Source: Pleurotus ostreatus/Saccharomyces cerevisiae fusant (taxonomy: Eukaryota > Opisthokonta). From it: 38,344 nt of DNA. Position numbers and translations under genes: made by a program. Positions 7,772 to 38,344 of this stretch are shown here, piece after piece; position 1 is the stretch's first letter, and each line of letters begins with the position of its first letter. The stretch is taken from positions 1 through 38,344 of the forward strand of contig JAMQCK010000210.1 of NCBI GenBank assembly GCA_024196135.1, read 5' to 3'. A model generated the notes under the pieces. It was not told the origin of the DNA, did not search any database, and saw only the letters and a program-made list of their open reading frames with translations.

Positions 7772-8916
7772 GTTATGAGGCAGTGCCTATTGAGGAAGTG
7801 AGAACGATTTGAGGTCCTCAGAGTTACAGGAGTCTTCGCGAACGCGAGAGTCAACGCGGCGCGCAGGGACGACGGCGGGGAGCAAGCATTTGCGGCGATT
7901 ACCGAGAGGCGTGGTTGTGACCCAACGTGATTAGCAGCGGGTGAAGCTGAAAGGCGCCTCCGGAAATACGCGTTCATGAATTGAACATTCGAGACGCGAG
8001 GGGCCAGCGCGTTCATATTCGGGCTATTCCTGAGACTTGAGGTCGTCCGCACCGCATCGGACATGCGAGGGTGGTGTTCAAAAGAGGGGATTCAGGCGAA
8101 TGAACGCGAAGGTGAACGCATACGTGTATATTGATCATGAGTATACTCTAGAGCGGTAAGATGACGCCGGTGGCAGGAAATAGGTTAGTACTGGCCGTCA
8201 GCCACGCACAGAATGGAACGCGAGGGGGTAAAGAGGCGGCTTCATCGTTCGAGCGCAGCGTTCGAAGGAGACGAGATGTGATGCAGCACGTAGAGCCTGA
8301 AGAACATAACGTCGCTGTTCGATTGAGGTAGAAGGCCTAACATCGTGGAGGGGATACCCGAGGAAACTGAATGCCACTTCCAATATGGCAGCAAACGTCA
8401 GTCAACATTCGACGCGACATGGCCGATCGCGCACCTCAGACCCCCGCGTCCCACCGCTGGAAAGCACGCGTATGCTTGCATACCTGACGCAGATCGTACC
8501 CTGGTTGAGAGTTGCGCACTGCATGGAGCAGGCGGGTCTCGCGATCGTGGTGAAATAGTACCAGGTAGGGCGTCGGTCAAGGTCGTCTGCTGACAATGGC
8601 CTGAGGGTGGCCCTTCGTTATCCGTGCGCTTATGCTTAGCACTCAAAGGAGAGAGGACTCCTGAGAAGTCTTCGGATTGTCCATGCCGTACGACTCGTTA
8701 CGAGGTCATCTAGAAGTACGCCAGTGAACACGCTTGGCGAAAGCACAGCGCCACAAAGTGCCACATCGGGAACGCAATACTTCCCACGCCACGTCGCCCT
8801 GACATCGACGTCCGAATTGCGCCAGCTCTTGAGAAGCGCCAGCGCCCCGCCGCAGAACCGAACCGCCTCCTGGCACCTACAACAAAACGGAAGCCTCAAT
8901 CTGTCCTCGACACGCC
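7772..8916. promoter_or_regulatory. shared intergenic region between divergent BTB pseudogene and MYND gene; right arm of inverted duplication
   Basis: About 1.1 kb without a gene, between the start of the BTB pseudogene (minus) and the first MYND gene (plus). Roughly 7900-8810 is the counterpart of 2785-3950 in inverted orientation. Near the MYND start it carries AGCGCCACA at 8747-8755 and a block (about 8746-8810) similar to 14485-14550 upstream of the third MYND gene. It presumably contains the promoters of both genes; no clear TATA box stands out. Confidence 0.65.
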
Positions 8917-10851
8917 ATGGCAACTTGGGCAAACGACATCGTCACTCTCAGTTACGCCCTCGAGCGATTGGGACGACGCGAAGCTACAACCCACACCCAG
9001 GAATTACAGGAGGAGAATTGGCAGCAATACGTGAAAGTCGTCAAACGGCTTCTGAAAAAGCGACCTCTACATATCCTTCTTCGTGCTCCTCACGACATCC
9101 GGCTCGACTCGAAGTCCTCGTCGTCCGCTTCGGCCTCGGCCAGCATGACCATCGAAACGATCATCGCCCTCAAGTCTCTTCATAAGGCTGCCAAAGGGAG
9201 CCTTAGCTCCCACTGGACCTTCGACGATACCATATGGACGCACGCTCTCCGCTGGATCCACTATCTTTTTCCTATCCGCGACTTCTCTAACTATCTCTCC
9301 TGGGCCGAGTCGATATCGCAGTCCACGACGCAAGCAATCTTCGGCGTTCTCGATAGCATAACAAAGCTCCCCGAATCGACGGCGCGAGTCATGCTCACGG
9401 CCAACGACGGACACGCACTTAATCTGCTCTTCGCGCTCTGGATTCGCTGGCCCATTCGCTTTCCCAACAACTCCTGCACACATATAAACTGCCAGAACGC
9501 GCTCTACTCCGTCTGGCGGTGTTTTGCACCGTCTCTCGATGATAACATGATCCTGGCGCCGATCCGGCGCATGACAGGCTCCCGACCAAAGCGCCTATCC
9601 CGCCTCTGCGGCGCTCACCTGAACATGATCGTAGCAGTGGGCGACACGGGTCGCGAGTTCATTCCAGAACAGCTCGAACTCATGGTTGCGCTCACGCGCG
9701 ACGGGGGATCCGCTCTTTCCAGGTCGTTCATAACAGCCATCATCAATGCCCTCGACGAGAATCTGACCAACAGTCCGCATCTTCACAACGCGTGGGGGAC
9801 CTCCTTGCACGTCCTTCATCATCTCTGCTCCCGCTCAGACTATAATTTGCTCTCTGCGACAAAGCGTGGTCTCGTCCCGCTGCTCATCCACGCGCGGCGC
9901 GTTTGTGACGAATGCTCGAGGCGACGACCCGATTCCTATGGTCATTGTCAGGATATCGACGTCACAGGCCTGCTTTTGATACTCATTGGCGACATTCTGT
10001 CTGCCCGTTGTGCTGTGCAGGGCTTGCACGAAGTGCGGAGGCTATGTGCTACGCGCATGCCTGACATGCCTCTACGCGAGGACGAAAAGGCGCTCCTCAC
10101 GTTATGCGAGCAGCGTTACTCTCTGCTTTTACTCGCGGATCGGGAGTGGCCTCAGATCGCTGTCTGCAGCAACCCGGAGGTACGTCTCGCGCATATTGTA
10201 CTGGAAGGAATAACAGCATTGCTCAGTGCTCAACGGTCCGAGGCGCCACTGTGCGCTCTTGTCCTTGCGGAGAGGTCCTCTACTGTTCGAAGCAATGCCA
10301 GCGGATGCACTGGAACAACGGCGAGCACCGCGCTGCATGTGCAAGTAGTCTCCTTCCTTCTGACGGTAATCCATCGCATCTCTTACTATCTCTCTCCCTG
10401 ATTCCATCTTCCAGTTCGCAACTCGATTCCCATGCGTGCCAGGGACGCACACTACCTCGCTGTCATTGCGCGCGCCTACATTGAGAGGCACTATATGGAC
10501 ATCATCAAGCAGTTTGGCGACACCGCCAATGCATACTACTATCTGCGCGTCGACATAAGCTTGCTACGCATGCGTGAAAACCTCCTTAGCGTCTCCCCTG
10601 GCCCTGCCGCGCCGTCTGGCTCGGATCCTTGCCGGTCTCCGACGATGGCTGTGCATATCCTGCACATGCGAGGCAACACCATGGAAACTCGGGTAGCTTG
10701 GCTCACGCCGCGCGCCGCGCCGCGACGCATTCCCAAAGACGTATTTGCGCGAGTGATGGATATATCCTATGGTGAGTGGGTATATCCTTTTCCCTGAATA
10801 TCGTTCGTGATGTCGTATTTTACAGATCCTCCTCTGATGTCCTGCACCTAA
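8917..10851 (+). CDS. MYND-type zinc finger protein, array copy 1
   Basis: Exons 8917-10179, 10227-10365, 10415-10771 and 10826-10851 give 594 residues. The start has a good context (GCCATGG). Residues 1-415 are helix-rich without a domain I can name and contain the family marks RPLHILL and TFDDTIWTHALRWIHY. The MYND finger (about 417-458) reads CSNPEC, SCPCGEVLYCSKQCQ and ends HRAAC, so all ligand positions of the CxNPxC...CxC...YCxxxC...HxxxC pattern are present. The first intron lies exactly before the second cysteine. The C-terminal module starts at ARDAHYLAVIARAYIE. MYND fingers bind zinc and usually contact proline-rich partners; there is no SET domain, so methyltransferase activity is not implied. 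Without the last splice the protein would end a few codons earlier, at 10797. Confidence 0.85.
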
Positions 10852-11146: not shown

Positions 11147-14100
11147 ATGGCGACGCTTTCTGATAACCTCATGACATATCTCCCTTTCTCCGCATACCCT
11201 GAACAAGAGGACATTGTCCGTCTATGCCAAGCCCTTGAAGTCATACAGAATCGCATTTGGGAAGAGCCAGGAGTTACTGGAGACGATGAAATGCGCAATC
11301 TAAGGATCTCCGGCCAGCTCCTGAGCAGCCGCCCGCTCCACATCCTCTACGACCCTCCTCCGCCGATTGCTTGCGAGGTCTTTGCGCCGTCACCCGAGGG
11401 CAGAACCATCATCACCGCCCTCTATACATTCAAGACCCTGCACTTCGTCACGACCCGCAAGCATAGGGCTCTCTGGCCCTTCAACGACTCTATCTGGTCT
11501 ACCGTTCTTCGCTGGATCGACTTCTTCCTCCCCACGTACGATTCCCACGCGCCCGACGTCATTCTGCAGATGGAAGATCGCGAAACGGCATCCCTCCTTG
11601 TCTCCGTCGTCTTGGGTATCCTCGGCTGCGTGTCTGGACTGCCGAAGTCCAAGGCGCGGGCACTTCTTCTCCAGGACGACGGCAGCCCGCTGCGCACGCT
11701 TGCCGCCCTTTGGACGTACTGGCCCAAGTTCGTCGAACACGTCGGCTTTGGCATGTCGTATGTCGCCAACAGCTCGTCAGTTTTCTCGATCATCTGGCAC
11801 ATCTTTGACCGCGACGTCGCCGAGGACGCCATCGGCGCCCAAGTCCTGCGCATGGCAGGTGTATGGGCGGTATAGTGTGCAAAAACCTCTTAATGAGGTT
11901 TTCGACACATGTCGCCGATGGGATTGAATATCGACGTACGATTTTGATGAACTTGCAAAAACGACGCACGCGATCGAAATATTCCGTGATGGCGGCCTTC
12001 AGTGCTGAGAACTCCGTCCGTTAGAAAGGGCGATGAGGGACGGAGGACTGTGGGCGGTGCCGTGGCTGGGATGGCCCGGGCTCGGGAATTGCCGACTGAT
12101 GGTAAGCGCCCGGCGCTAAAGCCGGGATACTCTTGTGTGATGTGAATACCAGCTCTCTGGACGACGCTCAAGCCTTGAATGGGTGTCCCTCACGAGTATA
12201 CAGCCCATCTTTAGGGGTCAGACGCGCTCGCTAACAATCGGAGGACATAGCTGGCTTCGCGCTGGCCCCGTCGTGCCCACCTCATCGCGCTGGACTGACT
12301 TCCGAGCAGACCATATCAACTGTCAAATCTATGGCCGCCGCAGGACGGTCCTACATATATCTCTAGATCTTCCTCCTCGGTGGCATCCACCGACATCGTT
12401 ATTCGCAGGCGCCTTGATCCGCCTCGAAGTAATTTCCCGTGCAAGGGCTCGAAATTTGGCGGGCCCGAAGCACTTAAGTATCCGTGCCTTGACAGACTCT
12501 TCGAGCAGCGCGTGCGCAGTATAGCCCTGGTGAGGGAAGAAGACTCTGGTATGGTGCGCTTGAGGCTGCGAGGACGGATCCGAAAGCGGCCAGAACTCAG
12601 TGCGTTTGGGTTGGGCTTATAAGCACTTATGGTCTTTGTTCATTGGTACATGACATACTCGCTCCCCTGAATAGAATGTTCAATTGCCATAGATACTCAC
12701 CTTGTGGAGAAGCAAAGATATATGGCCTTGAGAATGGAGGGCCAGCGAGCGAGACGAAGTTCAACTGGCAGCTCACGTGAGCGCGGGAATCGGTCGGCTT
12801 CGGGCGAAGCCAATATCGCCAGGCTCAGTGCGACCGCGACGCTCAAGGTCCCAATCTGCCGTGATCCAGCGTGAAACCTGCCTAATTAGAGCCTCCTTTA
12901 GAGGTAACCGAGTACTTCCATCCCGATCATATGCGTCGATTTTGCGTGTCCGTTGAACTCGTGCGTCGTTTTCGAGCCTCGGCGGTGGCATGTGTCGAAA
13001 ACCTCGTTCAGAGGTTTTTGCACACTATACCGCCCATACAGGTGGCAGCCCGAAGCAGGTCTTCCGCATCAGCGCCGCGCATATCCGCCTAACTTCCGCG
13101 ATGCGCGCCGCCGGGAATCCCGCGAACGACATGGGTCGACAGGTCGAGATCATATCGTTGCTCATGCAGAAGTTCGACTTCGGCGCACAGACGATCCCAG
13201 GGTCATTTGTCGCGACGGTGGCGGACGCTCTCAACACTCTCCTCGTCTCGGAGCCAGATGCGCGCGACGTCTGGCACTTATATTTGATGCTTCTTTACGA
13301 ACTGTGCCGTCGAACGGACCACGCTTCGAAGCTAGCACTCAAGCACGGCATCTTCCCTATCCTCGTCCGAATTCGCATGATTTGCTCCCATTGCTCTTCC
13401 GGCGCGCCACCCTATGGTACAGAGGCAGACTCGGTATACGGCACGACTGGAGCTCTCCTGCTGCTCATGGGCGACGTCCTCTACTTCCGACGCGCGGTTA
13501 CAGGATTCAGCAAGTCCTGCGAGACTTTCAAGAGTCGCATGCCGCCTATATCTCTGAGGGTAGATGAGAAGCGCTTCCTCGCTATCGCTAAGCGCCGCTT
13601 CGGTCTACTGGAGCGTGCTGCGAAGGAATGGCCTGTTGTCGCCGTGTGCTGCAACCCTCAGGTGCGTCGCGCGCACCAGACTCGTGAGCTTTCCGCCTCA
13701 CGCTTTTGCTCTGACAGTGCGCTACTACGAAAGGGGCGCCCGTTCGATCGTGCCCGTGCGGCGACGTGCTTTACTGCTCGAAGAGTTGCCAGCGCGTACA
13801 CTGGGATAGCGGGCTACATCGACAACAGTGCGAGAAGTACCTGATCCCTGCTCCCGGTACGCAAACATCGCTTCTCTGGCTTCACGTTCCTGACCAAAAT
13901 CATATTCTACAGATGGTGGGCTCGGTACCATGCACGCGAAGGACGTCCACTTCCTAGTGGTCATCGCGCGCGCCTATGTCGAGGAGAACTACGCTACGAT
14001 CATAGCCGGCGTCCCGGGAAACCTCGCATCGTACGAGTATATCATGGTCACCCTAGTCCTCTACAAGAATCGGGAAGAGTGCGCTGGTATAGAGGTGGGA

Positions 14101-14334
14101 CCCGCTGGTCCGCCGCACGATGCTTGTCGATACCCGAGCATCATCGTGCAGGCGCAGTATAATCAGGGCGACGGAATGCGCACGCGGACCGTCGGGCTCG
14201 TCCCGGCGACTGCTCTAAGGCGCTATAAGTGCACAGACTTCAAGCAGCTCACGCACACGTTCTATAGTACGAGTCGCGCAGTCGCTTCCCCGATGGCATT
14301 GCTCATTGATACCATAGATCCACCGTCTGCTTGA
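11147..14334 (+). CDS. MYND-type zinc finger protein, array copy 2, with a transposon-like intron
   Basis: Proposed exons: 11147-11858, 13042-13661, 13718-13856, 13913-14266, 14318-14334, giving 613 residues. The first exon ends in LRMAG and the second begins GGSPKQVFR, which together match the uninterrupted LRVSGGSAKS and LRLAGGSVKS of copies 3 and 4. Between them lies a 1,179-bp element with terminal inverted repeats. A GT-AG splice 11859-13041 removes it exactly, whereas without splicing the protein stops after about 240 residues. The MYND finger (about 440-482) reads CCNPQC, SCPCGDVLYCSKSCQ and HRQQC. The C-terminal module starts MHAKDVHFLVVIARAYVE. The last intron (51 nt) is a multiple of three, so both spliced and unspliced forms reach the same stop. 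No other lesion is seen, which argues against a dead gene. Function as for copy 1. Confidence 0.78.
11861..13039. mobile_element. non-autonomous DNA transposon-like element inside MYND copy 2 (candidate introner)
   Basis: The 1,179-bp element is bounded by 57-bp terminal inverted repeats (11861-11917 and 12983-13039) beginning GTATGGGCGGTATAGTGTGC. The outer 30 bp are identical and 4 of 57 positions differ. Each repeat contains a small hairpin, AAAACCTC and GAGGTTTT around a 5-nt loop. A subterminal inverted pair AAAACGACGCAC lies at 11958-11969 and 12961-12972. AGGT flanks both ends (11857-11860, 13040-13043) as a target site duplication; reading T/A as part of the termini would give GG instead. 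Internal frames are short and I recognise no transposase, so it would need one supplied in trans. The superfamily is undecided. Confidence 0.88.
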
Positions 14335-14829
14335 AGCTAAATGTGATCCTAGTCTTGGAGGAGCGCAGCAAAAGAGATGACCGTACGAAGGTTCTCGATG
14401 TATACTCTGTACCTTATAGCCCGTGGCGAATCATAAGTTCGTTTGTTCGAGGCGAGCAGTGCCGCCGAGCACCATATGAGCGCTTAGCGCCACAAAACAC
14501 CAAGTCGAGAGACGGATTTCTCACGCCACATGCCCTGGAACCAATCTTCCGACTCCGTATGTTCTTTGTCACCGACGCTCTTTCCTCGCCGTCTGTGGTC
14601 TGGCGTGGCTGCTAAGTACTATAGGAAAGCAATAGGCCTTCAAGCTGAGTCCCCCGCCTGTATCGCCTGTTGATCTTTCATCCCTTGGTCCCACCTCAAA
14701 CGCCGCCGCTGGGCACGATGACACGTCAATCATCGTGGCTTCTTCGTAGCTGGTTCTGGCGTTGCTTGACTGCCGCGGCCGGTTTCTTGTTCTTTTCCAC
14801 CATCCCTTCTTCACTGCCCGTCCTCGACC
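14335..14829 (+). promoter_or_regulatory. upstream region of MYND copy 3, with dispersed conserved block
   Basis: About 14440-14600 is strongly similar to the reverse complement of 2785-2940 and more weakly to 8746-8810, all in front of present or lost MYND genes. It contains AGCGCCACA at 14486-14494. No TATA box is obvious. A pyrimidine-rich stretch (TCTTTTCCACCATCCCTTC) lies just before the start codon. Confidence 0.55.
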
Positions 14830-16847
14830 ATGGCAGCGCTACCAGATTTCCCCCACCTGGGCTATTCGATTACCTCGCAGCAAGAAAACGACATACGGAG
14901 CCTTCACGATGCGCTCGCTGTCATAGAACAGCAGACCCCCGACGAATTCGCAGAGTTTACCCCCGAGAATTCTTCACGCTTGAAGACCGTCATGCGCCTT
15001 CTGCACTCGCAGACGCTCAACGTCGTGCTGACCTCTCCGCCCGACATCCCTTTCGAATATTACTGCAGGACGACATCTGGAGGTGCAATTTTCATGGCGC
15101 TTATGGCAGTCAAGCTTCTTCGGTTCTCGATGTCACGAAAACTCAGCCGTGACTTGTGGCCATTCGACGATTCAGTCTGGCCGCATCTCCTTCGTTGGGC
15201 CGACTACATCGTCCCAACTCACCACGTTCCACACGCCCTCATGCATATGCCCAAAGCGGAAGCCAACTATCGCATCTCCGCTGTCCTCGGACTACTCGAA
15301 TGCCTCGTGTCTCTTCCAAAGACGGAGGCACAGGGATACTTTCTCGCCGGAGACAATGACGCGTTGCACACGCTGGTTACTCTCTGGGTGCATTGGCCCG
15401 AAATCGTCTCGTACCAGCAGATGGAAATCGGAGCGATGTTGTGGTGCCCGGGGATCTTCCGAGCGGTGTGGAACATCTTCGACAACCAGGTCGCGGAGGA
15501 CGTTGTGGGCACGCAGCTTCTGCGCGTGTCAGGCGGAAGCGCGAAAAGCGTGCTCCGCACCTGCGCCGCAATGCTGCGCGCCCTATCGTCTACGGGCAGC
15601 ATCGCCCGTGAGGGGAACGAGCTCGGCCAGCAGGCGACGTTCGTCTTGACCCTTATCTCTCACTACAAGTTCAACCCGCAGACCGTCCCCAATTCGTTCA
15701 TCTCCACCGCGACCGCGATACTCTACGACAACCTCATCGCCGCGCCTGATAATCACGACGTCTGGTGTCTCCTTTTCCTGCTGCTCTTCCAGCTCTGCTC
15801 GCGCTCTGACCATGCGACGATGCTGGGCATCAAGTATGGGATGTACCCGATTCTCATCCGCATACGCGAACTTTGCTCACATTGCTCCTCCGGACCGCCT
15901 CCCCCTCCCACCGACCAGTCATACACGGGCGGGATGACCGGCACTCTGCTGTCTTTCATACGTGGTTCCTTCTGGTCGCGACGCGCTGTCGCTGACTTCC
16001 ACGAGGCTTGCGACAAGTATGCGGCGAGCATGCCAGGCATCCCTCTGCGAGAGGATGAGGAGCTGGTCCGCGCTACCGCCAAGGACCGCTATGCCCTTCT
16101 CCTCCAGGCAGAGGAGCAATGGCCGAGCATCGCGAGATGCTGCAACTTCAAGGTTAGTAAGGTCGCCATGCGTCTTCGACTGGAATCTGAGTATTCCAAA
16201 GAAGTGCCGCAGCTCCGAACTCGCCTCTCTACGCGCTTGTCCGTGCGGCGAGAACCTCTACTGCTCGAAGGAATGCCAGCGGGCGCATTGGAAGAGTAAG
16301 GGCCACCGAAACGACTGCGAGAAACATTTCGAGGGCTTGCGTGGTGCGTCTCCTCTCATCTTGTGGCCATCCCCTCGCCTGATAATCGCCTAGAAAGCAC
16401 CGCGCGCATTGTGAAGGCGAAGGATATCTACTTCCTGGTCGTCATCGCGCGCGCCTACGTCGAAGCTAACTACCGCCGGATTCTCGCCGCGCTGAACCGC
16501 AGCCGCTCGAGTCACATCTCATCCGTCTTCATCGACATTCCCTTGTTCTGCGACCCCGTGAGCCCTGAAGACTTCAAGGTCACCGGGTATGAGAACTCGT
16601 GCCGACCCGACCACTGCCCGTACCCCACCATCGTCGCCCAGGTTCTGTATGAACAGACGGACGGCATGCACACATGTGTGGTGTATCTCGTACCCAGAGG
16701 CGCCCCTTGGCGCTACTGGAAGGACGAGTTCATGCCGATTACATGCACTTTTTACGGTGAGCTCCGGATCGTCGCCTCGAGATGTACACGCTCAACTTAC
16801 ATCTACGCGTCTCAGATCCGCCGACAGACTGGACCGACCTCGACTGA
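14830..16847 (+). CDS. MYND-type zinc finger protein, array copy 3
   Basis: Exons 14830-16152, 16205-16343, 16394-16756 and 16816-16847 give 618 residues. The start ACCATGG is a strong context. The N-terminal part (1-435) contains DLWPFDDSVWPHLLRWADY and LLRVSGGSAKSVLR, the latter uninterrupted where copy 2 carries its element. The MYND finger (about 437-479) reads CCNFKC, ACPCGENLYCSKECQ and HRNDC, again with a phase-0 intron right before the second cysteine. The C-terminal module starts VKAKDIYFLVVIARAYVE, and the last exon ends DPPTDWTDLD, closely matching copy 4 (DPPTSWELD). Its closest relative in the window appears to be copy 4 on the minus strand at 35941, so it may represent the ancestral form of the array. 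Confidence 0.88.
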
Positions 16848-17211: not shown

Positions 17212-18998
17212 ATGCTCAACGTTCCAGAGCTCAGACTCTCCGTATTTCGCCACTTCTGGACGTCCGAAATATACTCCCTGAGGCTAGTATGTAGGGCCTG
17301 GTACCCGGAGGCAGATCAGGCGCTGTGGGAATCGATAGAGAGGCTCCCGACGGTCTTGCGTTTTCTTCCTGAGGATGCGTGTGAGCAGGACTATGTGAGA
17401 TATACTCGTAAACTGTGGGTGCTGGCGCTGACTTCATCCAGAGTATCTCCACCTATGGATCGGGGGACAAGTCGACGATCCACAAGTCTCCCACGACATT
17501 TGTGAATATGGGTTCTACATGCGCCTCGGGACACCGTCTCACTGGATTTGCAGAGGATAGTACGACCGCTTACGACGGAAGACTGGCTCCCCGTTGTCGG
17601 CCGCGCTCGCTGTCTAAAAGATTTCCGATTGTCGGGCATCTCGAATGCATGCACAAACGAGACCCTCGAAGCTATCATCGCGTGTCCTCCGCCGCGCGTC
17701 CCCCTCTTCCCAGGAGTACGTACCGCGCAGCTAAACCGCCCATACCGCGCCGGTCAGGAATCATTCGTCTACCACCGACTCCTCAGCATCCTTTTCCCCC
17801 CGCGCGGCATATCCAAGCTGAACTGCGCCGGTTACGAAGACGACATCCCCGACGCGCACGCCTTCCTCTCGCACTTCGCGTCCCTGGAATCATTGGAAAT
17901 GATCCTGGGCGCGGGCGAGTACGCGCACCGGCACTCGCAGTTCATCAATACGTGGCCGTATTTCGTCTTCGATCCCTCGCACGACCCGGCCAAGCGCTAC
18001 GACATCCAGTTCATCGAGGCTCTCAGAATATGCCCCAGGCTCCGCGACATCGACATTAGCTTCGAGCCGCGGATTACCGCGCACATTTTGGAGGCCCTCG
18101 CGCAGCTCCCGGCGCTCCAAACTCTGCGCCTGCGCTTCGGCAACCACGCGAACCCGTCTGAGAGCGTAGAAAGTAGCCTTGTCAGCCCGTCGTACTCGTT
18201 CCCGGCCTTCCCCGCGCTGCGATCTCTGACCATCGACGGGCTGGCTCCGAGCGTCGTGGCGCGCCTGTTGTCGACGCGCACGCCTACGCCGCTGCATGAC
18301 ATCCGTATTGAATGTCCCTACGGGCACGGCTACCTGGACCCATTGCACATGACGAAGGCACAGATGACTGCCCTGATTGAACTCGTAACATCCCAACTGG
18401 TCCCCTATAGCTCCCTGCGCACGCTGCACCTCGTCGGGTACGGGTATCAGAGGTACACCCTCGCTCTGGAAGACCCGAATTCCCGGAGCTGCGCGGTCTG
18501 AGTATAGGCATCCGCTCGACTACATTCAGCCTGACCGACGGGGACTGCGAGCGCATGGCGGGCTGGTGGCCGCATATCAAAACGCTTCTGTTAGGTCCAG
18601 AGATCTGCGGATACAGAGACACGGGGAAGGTCTCCCTCCTGGCCCTTCTTCATCTGACTCACCTTCGGCTCCCTCTCGACGCAAGCGATGTGCCGGAGAT
18701 TCAGCCCGCGCCTGGTCCGTATCCTAGGCTCTACATGCTCCACGTCGGCGACGCACCGATCGACAACGCCGCGCGCGTTGGGGAATTCCTCAAGGCGACA
18801 TTCCCAAAGGTTCGAGACCTGTGGTACGACTCTGATCATTACGACGACGAAGTCGACAGAAGGGAGGCGGCGTGGGATGTCGTGTATGAGATGCTGACGG
18901 GAAAGAAGGACTATGGGCCGGACTTTTCGCACATACGCGAGAAGAAGCTTGCCACTTCTACCGCTTCGAAGCAAGGGGATGCGTCGGAAAGGTGGTAG
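17212..18998 (+). pseudogene. F-box protein with LRR-like C-terminus, apparently disrupted
   Basis: From ATG at 17212 the product reads LNVPELRLSVFRHFWTSEI then LRLVCRAWYPEAD, a fungal F-box-like start, followed by LPTVLRFLPEDACEQD as in many agaricomycete F-box proteins. A good intron (17395-17441, GTGAGA to TTCATCCAG) follows. A long intact frame from about 17548 to 18477 has leucine-rich spacing (LPALQTLRLRF, PALRSLTIDG, SSLRTLHLVGY), but it is not reached in frame: an in-frame TGA lies at 17503-17505 and no simple splice bridges it. Near 18478 the natural continuation EDP then EFPELRGLSIGIR shifts frame by one base, consistent with loss of one G. It then runs to a stop at 18998. F-box proteins recruit substrates to SCF ubiquitin ligases. 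Either a pseudogene or a gene with two assembly errors. Confidence 0.6.
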
Positions 18999-22437: not shown

Positions 22438-22972
22438 TATGTCGAACCTGACCTGGGGGCTGGCCCCGCGCTACTGATAGTTCATGATGCTTCAGCTCTG
22501 GATGCTTTGACTCGCTAGGCTTTCTGACCACCACTAACCACTCGTGTGACCTCGCGTTTATGCGTCGAGCTTGAACACTTTTTACGCTCTTACTTACCCC
22601 GCCATCATTCCGCTGGTAGCTAGCGAGGCACGTATCCTAGAAGCGCTTGTAGACTAGTATTTATACAGGGATCGATCCAACTAATAACATTTCGTAAATG
22701 GCTTACCGTTTCTCGAACGAAAGCAGGTCAGTGCGCAGGTGTGATCTCCAGAAGAGCTGCAGCTTTCGACTTGCCTTGTTGCAAGTTGAACATCGGTATC
22801 ATGTGGATATCACCGCGTGTGCCCCAGCGGAGCTCGAAATTTGAACATGAAGTTCAGACTGGGCCATTGTTCGTCCGTTCGTCCGCCAACCTCTGCCCAG
22901 GTGGTTACCCTCTCCTACTTAATGTACGTGTACCCTGCTGCTTTGATAAAAATGGTGCTGACTTGCCGAAGC
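22438..22972 (+). other. intergenic region before the divergent MYND gene
   Basis: 535 bp with an AT-richer patch around 22655-22675 (GTATTTATACAGG) that could be TATA-like. A stretch from 22924 to 22981 looks exactly like an intron (GTACGTG donor, GCTGAC branch-like site, CTCAG acceptor). If it is a 5'-leader intron, the start codon of the next gene moves downstream. Confidence 0.4.
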
Positions 22973-24913
22973 ATGAACTCAGATACGTCCCTTGACGACT
23001 TGCCGTCCCCGCTGGCGAAGCTGACGCATGTCCTCATGGACATGCGAGAGACATTGGACCGCGACAGAACGGCCAAGGCTCTCAACAAGAAGACGCATCC
23101 GCTGACAAAGAAAGCCCTCGCACTTCTTCGGACGAACCCGCTCAAGGTGCTCTTCGAGCATCCGCCCTCGAACGAGCCGTACACCATGTTCCTTCTGAGG
23201 GACCGCGCTGGCGATGTTGTCTCGGCTCTTTACCCCTTTGGAATCCTGGCAGAACTCGTCAACAGAGGCGTGACCTCTCTCTGGGTCCTGGACAAGCCGG
23301 AGGTCGTGTGGGCGGGCGTCTTCAGGTGGGCCGAGTACCTGCTCGTCGATGCGGTGGACTTGCCGGCGGAATTAACGACCTTCGACATGCGTTACACTCT
23401 CAACAACGCCATTGACGCGGTGCACGCTGCGCTCGTTCAACTTCCGAGCTTACCGATGGAGCAGGCGCACGCCATCCTGCTGTCGAGCGAATACGACGCT
23501 GTACGACTCATTGTGGTCATTTGGCTGGAATGGCCGGCGTTCCTCCCCAGGATCGCAGTGAAGGACCATAAACCGTCGATAATCCCCTGCATCTCTCTCC
23601 TTCACGCCCTCTGGCCGGTCATAGGAAAGGACACCGACGCGCGCTCAGTGTTCCTAGCGCAGCTTCTTGGCGCGCGAAAAGGCAGTTCGCGGCGTCTGTT
23701 TCGCACCATCGCGTCACACCTGGAGGTTTTCGCGAACTGTGAAGAGTACCGCCTTCACCTCGACCTCATCCCTTTCATCCGGCTTGCGTCTGAGCTTGCC
23801 AGGATCCCCGAACTGCGCCATGAAGGTTTCCCCTCCAAAATGGTATCCGTCGCAGTATCTACTGTGAAGTTCGCCCTCGACAAATACCCGTCTGCGGCTA
23901 CAACGGCATGCTGGCTGCTATCCTGCCTATGCTACTGCGACGATCGCGCGATCGCCGTCGCCATCAAGCACGGCTCGTTTCCCTTGCTTGTTCAGACCCG
24001 GAACCAATACCCACAGTTGGATTCCTCAAAGGACTATGCGCTTATGCGGCATGCGCTAGCTCGTCCCACCGTGGTCAAACACTCCCACGAGAGCCTGGAG
24101 GCCCTCGACGACGGCCTGCAGCTCAGTCTGGACGAGGAAAGAACCGTGAAGCTCGCTCGTCATCGGTACGAGCTTTGGGAGGAAGCTGAGGTCGAGTGGG
24201 ACGAAGACGCTGTCTGCGGAAATGATTCGGTAAGCGGTCTCGCGCCTGTCTCCCAAGATGGCTGCTCAACTCATTCGCTATGCAGTGCGAAGCTGGAGAG
24301 GACGCGCCCCTTCGCGCGTGCGCGTGCGGAGAGGTCCTCTACTGCTCCGTCACCTGCCAGAGGGCAAATTGGAAGCAAAGACATCGCACCAGCTGTGCGT
24401 TCATCTCAAGGATTGGCGAGCCATTCGGTGCGTTCTACCGCCTGCCTGTGTCATGAGTATCCTACTGACGTCGCCATAGCAAGTCTTCCCCCACGGGAGG
24501 TTCACTTTCTCGCCATCATCGGGCGTGACTGGCTGGAGAATAACTACGCACGGCTCGCGCAGGAACACGGAGAATCGCTGGATCTCAAGCTGGATGTGTC
24601 GGAGGGAGAGTTATGCCGACTCGCCGAGCCCTTGTCGCCACAGCCTGGGATGGGTCTCCATATCGTCATGACGGACGTTGCATATTTCAGGAGACGGGCT
24701 CTCATATATCGCTCCTTCATGTTCCTCGCGGCCCCTAGGCGGGAGTGCAGCCCGTTCAAGACCTTAACCCAGGTGGTCTTCAGCACGGACCCGGACGGGG
24801 AAGACGATGAAGACGAGGAGGAGGAGGACGAGGACGGTGAAGACGACGCGAGCGACGAGGATGACGAGAATACTCCAAGGATGGGCTCGACGAAGGTGAA
24901 GCGAGCGGTGTAG
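22973..24913 (+). CDS. MYND-type zinc finger protein, divergent copy with acidic C-terminal tail
   Basis: Exons 22973-24229, 24286-24427 and 24480-24913 give 610 residues. The N-terminal part keeps the family plan (ALLRTNPLKVLFEHPP, VFRWAEYLL, AIAVAIKHGSFPLLVQTR) but is well diverged from copies 1-4. The MYND finger (about 415-457) reads CGNDSC, ACACGEVLYCSVTCQ and HRTSC; both phase positions of the flanking introns are as in the other copies, while the third family intron is absent. The C-terminal module (REVHFLAIIGRDWLENNY) is followed by a run of about 25 mostly Asp/Glu residues and a basic end (STKVKRAV). ATG 22952 is an alternative start in frame. A start further down (about 23030) is possible if the intron-like leader at 22924-22981 is real. 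Convergent to the MYND pseudogene at 25176-26889. Confidence 0.8.
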   Translation: MNSDTSLDDLPSPLAKLTHVLMDMRETLDRDRTAKALNKKTHPLTKKALALLRTNPLKVLFEHPPSNEPYTMFLLRDRAGDVVSALYPFGILAELVNRGVTSLWVLDKPEVVWAGVFRWAEYLLVDAVDLPAELTTFDMRYTLNNAIDAVHAALVQLPSLPMEQAHAILLSSEYDAVRLIVVIWLEWPAFLPRIAVKDHKPSIIPCISLLHALWPVIGKDTDARSVFLAQLLGARKGSSRRLFRTIASHLEVFANCEEYRLHLDLIPFIRLASELARIPELRHEGFPSKMVSVAVSTVKFALDKYPSAATTACWLLSCLCYCDDRAIAVAIKHGSFPLLVQTRNQYPQLDSSKDYALMRHALARPTVVKHSHESLEALDDGLQLSLDEERTVKLARHRYELWEEAEVEWDEDAVCGNDSVSGLAPVSQDGCSTHSLCSAKLERTRPFARARAERSSTAPSPARGQIGSKDIAPAVRSSQGLASHSVRSTACLCHEYPTDVAIASLPPREVHFLAIIGRDWLENNYARLAQEHGESLDLKLDVSEGELCRLAEPLSPQPGMGLHIVMTDVAYFRRRALIYRSFMFLAAPRRECSPFKTLTQVVFSTDPDGEDDEDEEEEDEDGEDDASDEDDENTPRMGSTKVKRAV

Positions 24914-35940: not shown

Positions 35941-37951
35941 TCAGTCTAGTTCCCAACTCGTCGGCGGATCTGATAAGGGACTTTTAGCCGCGAATCGTAT
36001 GGACCAGCGGCCAACACTGACCATAAAAGGTGGACGTGAGCGGCCTGAACTCGTCGACCGAGTACCGCCATGGCGCCATAGAGGGGACCAAGAAGATCAT
36101 GCACTTGTGCATCCCGTCCGTCTGCTGATACGCCACTTGCACGACGACGGATGGATAAGGGCATAAGTCGGGGGCAAGACCTGTCGGAGCGAGCTTGATT
36201 TGAAAGTCCTCGGACGCCTCGGGGTCGTGAAAGAGGGGAAGGCCGACAAAGACGACGTCGCTGGCGTTCGGCAGCCTGTCTAGCGCGACGAGGATGCGGC
36301 GGTAGTTGGTTTCGACGAAGGCGCGCGCTATGACGACGAGGAAGTGGACATCTTTCGCCTTCACGACGCGCGAGGTACTCTCTGCATGGAGTGTAAGCCA
36401 CTAGGCGAATGCACCAGAATACGATTTGCGTACCCGCGAGGAGGGTCGCGAAGTGCTCTTCGCAGTTATAACGATGTTCCTTCGTATCCCAATGCGCGCG
36501 TTGGCAATCTCTGGAGCAGTAGAGAGCCTCGCCACATGGGCAAGAACGAAGCGTCGTAGCTCCGGTGCTTGGGCACTGGTCGGTTGATTGGTTAATCACA
36601 GTCAATAAACGCGTCAGGCTTTCCTCACCTTTGGGTTACAGCATTTGGCGACGCTCGGCCACTCCTTCTCCGCCTGCATGAGCAGTTCGTAGCGGCTCTT
36701 CGCGATATCCAGGACCGCCTTCTCGTCCGCCCGCAAGCGAGTGGCAGGCATACGCATCGCGTATTTGACCTGCGCCAGGTGGAAGTCCATGACAGCCCGA
36801 CGCGACCAGAAGGAGTCGCGAATGAAGGACGTGAGAGTGCCGGTGGTGCCTCCGGTATAGGGAAAGCCTTCGCCAGAAGGAGGAGTCCCCGTGGAGCAGT
36901 GGGAGCATATGGCCCGCACGCGGACGACGAGAGGGAAGATGCCGTGCTTGATGGCGAGCATTGTTGCGTGGTCAGAGCACGTGCACAGCCTGAACAGCAA
37001 AGTCAAGATCTGAACCCAATTATCGTGCTCCTTGGGGGCGGCGGCGAGGACGTCGGAGAGTACCGTGACCACGTTGGCGATAAACGAGCTCGGGATCGTC
37101 TGCGGATTGAAGTCGTAGTGATGTAGGATAGTGGAGATGAAGACGGCATGCCACCCGAGCTCGCCGCCGTGGCGCACAAGGGCGCCAGTCGAAGAAAGCG
37201 CTCGAAGGTGCGCGCCGCAGGCGCGGAATACGCTCTTCACGCTCCCGCCCGCGAGGCGCAGGATTTGCGTTCCAATGAGGTCGTTCGCGACCTGCGGGTC
37301 GAAGACCTGCCACGCCGCGCGGAGGACGCACGGAGACCAAGCCACGGCGTCAGGGACCAACTTGTGAGTGGATACAAGCTCGGGCCAGCGCAGCCACATA
37401 GCGACGATAGTGTGTAGCGCATCACTGCTGCTGTCAAGGAAATATGACCGGGCTTCCTCATGCGGGAGGGAGGCGATGCATTCGAGGATTCCGAAAGCAG
37501 CGAAGACGCCCAGCTTTCCTGTGTCGTCGTCCATCCGCAACAGTGCATCGTAATCTTGTGTGACGGGGATGATGTAGTCCACCCAACGCAGAAGGTGGCG
37601 CCAAATGGATTCGTCGAATGGCCATAACTGTGGACTTGGCAATCGAAAGAGAGTGAAGTGAAGAAGCTTCATAGTGGTCAACGCTGAAAGCATTGTTTTT
37701 CCGGCCACCGTGCGAGCGTATGCTTCGAATGGTATGTCGGGTGGGCTCGCCAGAATGATGTGCAATGGACGCGAGCGCAGGATTCGCTGGACCATTTTGA
37801 GATGCAGAGCCTCCTCAGACGGGGAGATCGAGGATAACCCGCGGACCATCCTGTTGATGACATCGAGAGAGAACTCGAGGGTTCGTATATCTTTGTAAAG
37901 CTGCGAGCATGTCGAGAGGTTCGGCTGGACTGGTTCCGGGACTGTAGCCAT
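35941..37951 (-). CDS. MYND-type zinc finger protein, copy 4
   Basis: Minus-strand exons 37951-36629, 36575-36434, 36381-36022 and 35969-35941 give 617 residues. The N-terminal exon contains QLWPFDESIWRHLLRWVDY and an uninterrupted LRLAGGSVKSVFR. The MYND finger (about 437-480) reads CCNPKC, SCPCGEALYCSRDCQ and HRYNC, with a phase-0 intron exactly before the second cysteine, a phase-1 intron after the finger and a phase-1 intron at FYG near the end. The C-terminal module begins VKAKDVHFLVVIARAFVE, and the last exon ends DPPTSWELD. It is most similar to copy 3 by eye. It lies 18 kb from the array and in the opposite orientation. It provides an empty site for the transposon-like intron of copy 2. 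Confidence 0.88.
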
Positions 37952-38344
37952 TATCAGGACGCGCGAAGGATCGACGGTTAGATGAGGGTAAGAGGAGAGA
38001 TCGTTGGCGAGTGAGAGAATGACGGCTGAGCGGCGGGAAAATCCTCCTCGGGACAGGCGACGATCCCCGACGCGTCATCCTGTCAGTGAGCGGCTTTTGA
38101 GCTGGTTCGGGGCTTGCCGCTCAGACAGAAGACCTACAGTAAGATCCATGGACCTAGAGCTTTCAAGCGCAAGTTTGGGTACACTGCGAAGCTCATATGA
38201 TGTTCAGAGTCGAAGTGCTTGATGAAGGACAGAACGAGAAAACAACGGTGTCACGGCGGGAGTCGAACCTTCGCACCGAATATGTGGCGCTCATGAGGAC
38301 GCCAGAATCGAGTTCAGGTAGAGAGTGGGTATCCGGAAGAGAGG
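37952..38344 (-). promoter_or_regulatory. upstream region of MYND copy 4
   Basis: 393 bp to the window edge. On the minus strand AGCGCCACA occurs at 38291-38283, 332 bp before the start codon, as in front of copies 1 and 3. A tRNA-like T-arm at 38243-38270 was considered and rejected. Nothing else was recognised. Confidence 0.45.

Follow-up and report, generated by a model that had tools for sequence, protein, structure and literature searches.

Does a whole DNA transposon lodged in a coding exon of a mushroom gene serve as an intron, with both splice sites furnished by its own target-site duplication? The question arises at a MYND-type gene, MYND copy 2, which spans positions 11147–14335 on the forward strand of the 38,344-nucleotide contig analysed here (the window; contig C404). 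An element of 1177 bp with inverted termini (11862–13038) interrupts this gene between 11858 and 13042. The exon upstream of the insertion (11147–11858, with the ATG at 11147) has an open frame that joins the downstream exon (13042–13661), itself open and matched by paralogues, once 11859–13041 is removed. A zinc-finger exon (13718–13856) follows, with a predicted 56-nt intron on either side, and the spliced frame runs through the last exon to the stop (13913–14335). Without 11859–13041 and the two 56-nt introns, the joined frame encodes 630 aa with no stop. Its junction aligned without gaps to three paralogues that are continuous at this place (LRMAGGSPKQ compared with LRMTGSRPKR, LRVSGGSAKS and LRLAGGSVKS) and are 32–41% identical to copy 2. 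The initial annotation had read the locus as a transposon that created an introner-like intron; its statements that the joined protein matches intron-less paralogues and that the flanking exons are undamaged agree with this gapless junction and with a frame open over 630 codons.

The MYND finger of copy 2 is marginal: its zf-MYND match has an E-value of 8.6e-4 and scores 19.7 bits, where Pfam requires 22.7. The window contains at least five MYND-type paralogues (8833–10401, 11147–14335, 14770–16299, 22790–24913 and 36614–38074). Word-based protein-database searches returned no close annotated orthologue of copy 2 among the matches listed, with one weak match. When the genome was searched with the downstream part of the gene (13042–14335) for alleles or empty sites, the matches were the gene itself and three short ones.

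The genome searched comprises 40.05 Mb in 1277 contigs. A chaperonin product assembled from it matched one Schizophyllum commune entry at 100% identity over 499 aa, an S. fasciatum entry at 99% and a second S. commune entry at 97%. On these identities the host is Schizophyllum, and the species is probably S. commune. Chaperonin exon layouts were similar in the contig pairs C848/C585, C367/C243 and C1097/C1098, which suggests that both haplotypes are present in the assembly at some loci; allelic empty sites may therefore exist for other insertions.

The element begins and ends with TATGGGCG...CGCCCATA, and its terminal inverted repeats (left, 11862–11976, forward strand; right, 12924–13038, reverse strand) are identical over the outer 29 bp and imperfect beyond, with 90 of the first 115 positions matching. 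A repeat finder reported 124-nt arms at 77%, flanks counted in. A 17-nt degenerate version of the terminus occurred 28 times in the genome, 14 times per strand, compared with no occurrence of a reversed control pattern, so the ends of the window element are not a product of chance. Its own family consists of seven elements (six others with both ends), and further subfamilies have related ends. For comparison we used 16 elements with both ends, a set that excludes an unpaired end (C407:1263), an extra end (C700:8401), an internal-only copy on C785 and most unpaired terminus matches. The C785 copy is an internal fragment at 18046–18718 (query 198–878, 71% identity) from which the termini are absent.

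An exact 6-bp duplication flanked 11 of the 16 elements; five of six bases were alike in one further element, only 4 bp in another, and no duplication was seen in three. The exact duplications were CAGGTG at the window element (left copy, 11856–11861; right copy, 13039–13044; forward strand) and CTGACA, CGTGGT, CCATTC, CGACAG, CTACAA, CCCGTG, CATATA, AATATA, AACTAT and TCGTGA elsewhere. Of the ten other exact copies, five (C318, C218, C232, C47 and C785) had an empty site, complete or nearly so, in joined-flank searches of the same genome. In all six empty-site alignments the joined flanks continued across the junction without a gap; agreement over the six bases was complete for C218 and C47 (twice), and extended to five positions for C318 and C785 and to four for C232. 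Four other copies, on C218, C1138, C700 (C700a) and C483, had stretches of 200–253 aa open across the joined site.

Because the duplication comprises six bases, as the exact copies and the empty sites indicate, the element is limited to 11862–13038. The 4-bp AGGT duplicate of the initial annotation gave way, in the comparison of 16 elements, to the 6-bp CAGGTG, as did a 5-bp alternative. Nor did we count a terminal C with the element: this base is present, with no element, at the empty sites of C318, C218 and C232, and that of C785 has T. G 11861 and C 13039 thus belong to the duplication. The annotated element between inverted termini and flanking duplicates is therefore real but measures 1177 rather than 1,179 bp, and its inverted repeats, also correctly recognized, are identical over 29 outer base pairs, not 30. 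Copy divergence was discarded as a measure of insertion age, as the 22% that separates the window element from its nearest copy includes change that preceded insertion, and transposition does not equalize the two inverted repeats.

These features place the element near the IS3EU superfamily. In rust fungi, IS3EU families are described with 6-bp duplications, inverted repeats of more than 30 bp and the ends TAYGG..CCRTA (PMC12730594, section 3.1.3), and complete IS3EU families are characterized by TA..TA ends and by duplications that are usually 6 bp long (PMC10045372). The window family shares the 6-bp duplications (11 of 16 exact), inverted repeats of more than 30 bp and the ends TATGG..CCATA, which conform to TAYGG..CCRTA. 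It differs in that the 16 Schizophyllum elements measure only 627–1304 bp and contain no open frame above 145 aa (stop to stop), so none of them can encode a transposase. Three open reading frames of the window copy matched no Pfam family, and among the 16 elements with both ends, whose ends are never more than 1304 bp apart, and two further terminus-like sites, there was no autonomous copy or transposase. The two sites were dismissed as ends of longer elements: they resemble chance matches, and the longest open reading frame there is an F-box-like gene. The search for an autonomous relative also gave one alpha-kinase match. Since no autonomous copy was found, assignment to IS3EU draws on the ends, inverted repeats and duplication, and by these marks the window element is an ordinary non-autonomous IS3EU-like transposon.

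How could such an insertion acquire splice-ready borders? We envisage that an IS3EU-type non-autonomous cut-and-paste transposon inserted into a MYND-type exon in Schizophyllum and that insertion duplicated the six bases CAGGTG. As these contain AG/GT, the left copy could give the donor (CAG/GTG, GT at 11859) and the right copy the acceptor (CAG/GTG, AG at 13040–13041), which would permit frame-perfect removal of the element plus one duplicate. The resulting candidate intron (11859–13041, forward strand) is a GT..AG intron of 1183 nt in phase 1, and its exact excision leaves the coding sequence unchanged, as is expected of introners. Neither GT nor AG is present at the boundary of the element itself. 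Thus, the initial claim that removing 11859–13041 takes out the element and one duplicate and restores the frame is borne out by the 630-aa open frame, as is the notion of a DNA transposon whose duplication furnishes both splice sites.

The term introner-like, by contrast, was not supported as a property of the element. With the ends TATGGG..CCCATA, exact splicing should require GGTNNN, AGGTNN, NAGGTN, NNAGGT or NNNAGG in the sense of the gene. The background was counted over sense six-mers from spliced MYND copy 2 and from eight long open reading frames in the window that we treated as coding: 426 of 13336 were compatible (3.2%), as were 87 of the 4469 starting with C (1.9%). CAGGTG qualifies, whereas none of the ten other exact duplications does on either strand (1 of 11 in total). 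Because none of these others qualifies and the element supplies neither GT nor AG, splice compatibility is, from these counts, a chance property of the target and not of the family. Other copies with a duplication of another length or sequence and no splicing had been named beforehand as evidence against intron creation; they were found in part, in that the other duplications differ in sequence, have a true length of 6 and are all splice-incompatible.

To judge whether the candidate would be spliced, we compared its signals with those of 60 introns predicted in eight chaperonin and eight window stretches (37 from the chaperonin and 23 from window genes). The annotated norm of 46–65 nt was about right (42 of 60; median 52.5 nt), and so was the caution that the signals are weak. 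The candidate departs from a typical intron of this genome (donor GTRNGT, branch motif CTNAY, short length) on all three counts: its donor, GTGTAT, is without G at +5, the 100 nt preceding the acceptor contain no CTNAY, and it is 1183 nt long. Among the chaperonin introns, 34 of 37 have G at +5 and 28 of 37 have CTNAY 6–48 nt upstream of the acceptor, compared with a background of 371 of 1892 YAG sites, although prediction with a consensus prior means that the set overstates the strictness of native signals. The 23 window-gene introns gave lower counts: 19 with G at +5, 14 with CTNAY and one with the donor GTGTAT itself. Of 122 in-frame donor–acceptor pairs that enclose the element, the exact pair was 20th by consensus score. 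CTNAY was missing at 25 of 32 element ends, which is close to the background rate. If the insert is retained, translation would end at a stop after 242 residues.

The predicted fold of the transcript has a minimum free energy of −527.3 kcal/mol (given without shuffles at such a length). In this fold, the inverted repeats pair with each other in a single long helix, whose 112 base pairs link the outermost 140 bases at either end. Both splice sites lie at the base of the hairpin; pairing covers the donor from +2 and includes the A of the acceptor AG. Such a helix could either hide the splice sites or bring them together.

One other copy was shown to be exonic. At C232:15358–16336, a family member interrupts what appears to be a coding exon, a single base ahead of the native-looking donor AAG/GTACGC, and its duplication, CTACAA, is splice-incompatible. 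The host gene has an in-frame stop downstream of the insertion that is absent at that place from a paralogue, which we compared at the stop position and the insertion site; the empty site of this insertion was found in a nearby paralogue (C232:36418–36616). Directly past the C232 insertion, a tract of about 100 nt shows no difference from the paralogue, against 80% agreement across the full stretch compared; this tract looks like recent gene conversion. An intact window gene beside a stop-bearing C232 host is the pattern expected of working splicing, although two cases prove nothing.

Taken as a whole, the locus is best explained, with a probability of about 70%, as an ordinary IS3EU-like insertion into a target that is splice-compatible by chance, mostly not spliced, and thus a candidate newborn intron rather than a member of an introner family. 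Given the signals, we expect retention or low-level splicing to be likelier than efficient splicing. Several observations sit uneasily with this explanation: the frame of the host is intact over 630 codons while that of the C232 host has a stop, an exact 6-bp duplication is missing in 5 of 16 elements, and no transposase supports IS3EU. An overlapping reading, to which we give roughly even odds, is a recent loss-of-function insertion in a gene that is disrupted but has not yet decayed, or that yields a truncated 242-residue product. It accommodates the early stop upon retention and the failure of word-based protein searches to list a close annotated orthologue, and tandem paralogues could buffer the loss. 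However, it makes the compatible duplication a coincidence, which we would put at 2–3% per exonic insertion and at about 4–6% for two.

Efficient splicing at CAG/GTGTAT..ATACAG/GTG, with a functional gene and complementary inverted repeats that join the two sites, is in our view unlikely. Frame-perfect geometry, undamaged exons, the consensus CAG before the donor, a predicted 112-pair helix with both sites at its base and the presence of the incompatible exonic copy in a stop-bearing gene all speak for such a working intron. Against this, the donor is weak and, in the predicted fold, possibly hidden by pairing from +2; the branch motif is absent; the intron would be 1183 nt long; and undamaged exons are equally expected from a young insertion. 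A little more doubtful still is a newborn mushroom intron, in which an IS3EU-type transposon would be spliced exactly through its own target duplication while its inverted repeats fold the 1.2-kb insert and offset the missing branch consensus. That the elements form a splice-adapted introner family that is spreading introns is very improbable. Beyond the perfect geometry of one exonic copy, this idea faces ten other duplications without a compatible one, element boundaries without GT or AG, CTNAY at no more than background frequency at the element ends, and published introner families with median lengths of 30–654 nt (in the family data of PMC9860276).

Among known systems, Florenciella has introners that draw both of their splice sites from the sequence into which they insert (PMC9860276, legend to Fig. 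2E). There, as here, the element itself carries neither splice site; the Schizophyllum case differs in being a single candidate of 1183 nt, with putative splicing, in a basidiomycete. The introner-bearing fungi named in PMC9860276 are Pezizomycotina, its ascomycete families are given without target duplications or inverted repeats, and its introner families have five or more copies each; of the 11 Schizophyllum copies with an exact duplication, only one is splice-compatible, short of the many copies that define introners. Recently gained fungal introns reported in PMC8476143 contain the DNA transposons Kolobok-H, PIF/Harbinger and TcMar-Fot1 and thus share with the window a DNA transposon inside a recent or candidate fungal intron. 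Those cases were recognized by comparing orthologues and were interpreted as remnants, whereas the window element is complete and flanked by an exact duplication.

In word searches of the open-licence literature, with subscription papers outside their scope, we encountered neither an IS3EU element described as forming an intron nor any mushroom introner. One model of intron gain invokes tandem duplication of AGGT, with the two copies providing donor and acceptor. A potato case of this kind has been described (PMC4974935). The window locus has in common with the model that a duplicated AGGT furnishes both splice sites, but here the duplication was made by transposition and foreign DNA lies between the copies.

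If the element is spliced, an entire DNA transposon would have given a basidiomycete gene an intron in one step, which would indicate that a target duplication alone can furnish both splice sites of an intron, in a genus whose strains can be compared and transformed. If it is not spliced, the locus becomes a useful negative: with a 6-bp duplication, perfect AG/GT geometry is cheap (about 3% of coding six-mers) and is not to be read as intron gain. In either case, a non-autonomous IS3EU-like family is added from Schizophyllum. A sister family of 641–660 bp, with TATGGGCGTTATAATGTTCGGAAA-like ends, is represented by at least five elements (C47, C503, C507, C700 and C1041), three of them with an exact 6-bp duplication; its size is reminiscent of the S. 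commune transposon 'scooter'.
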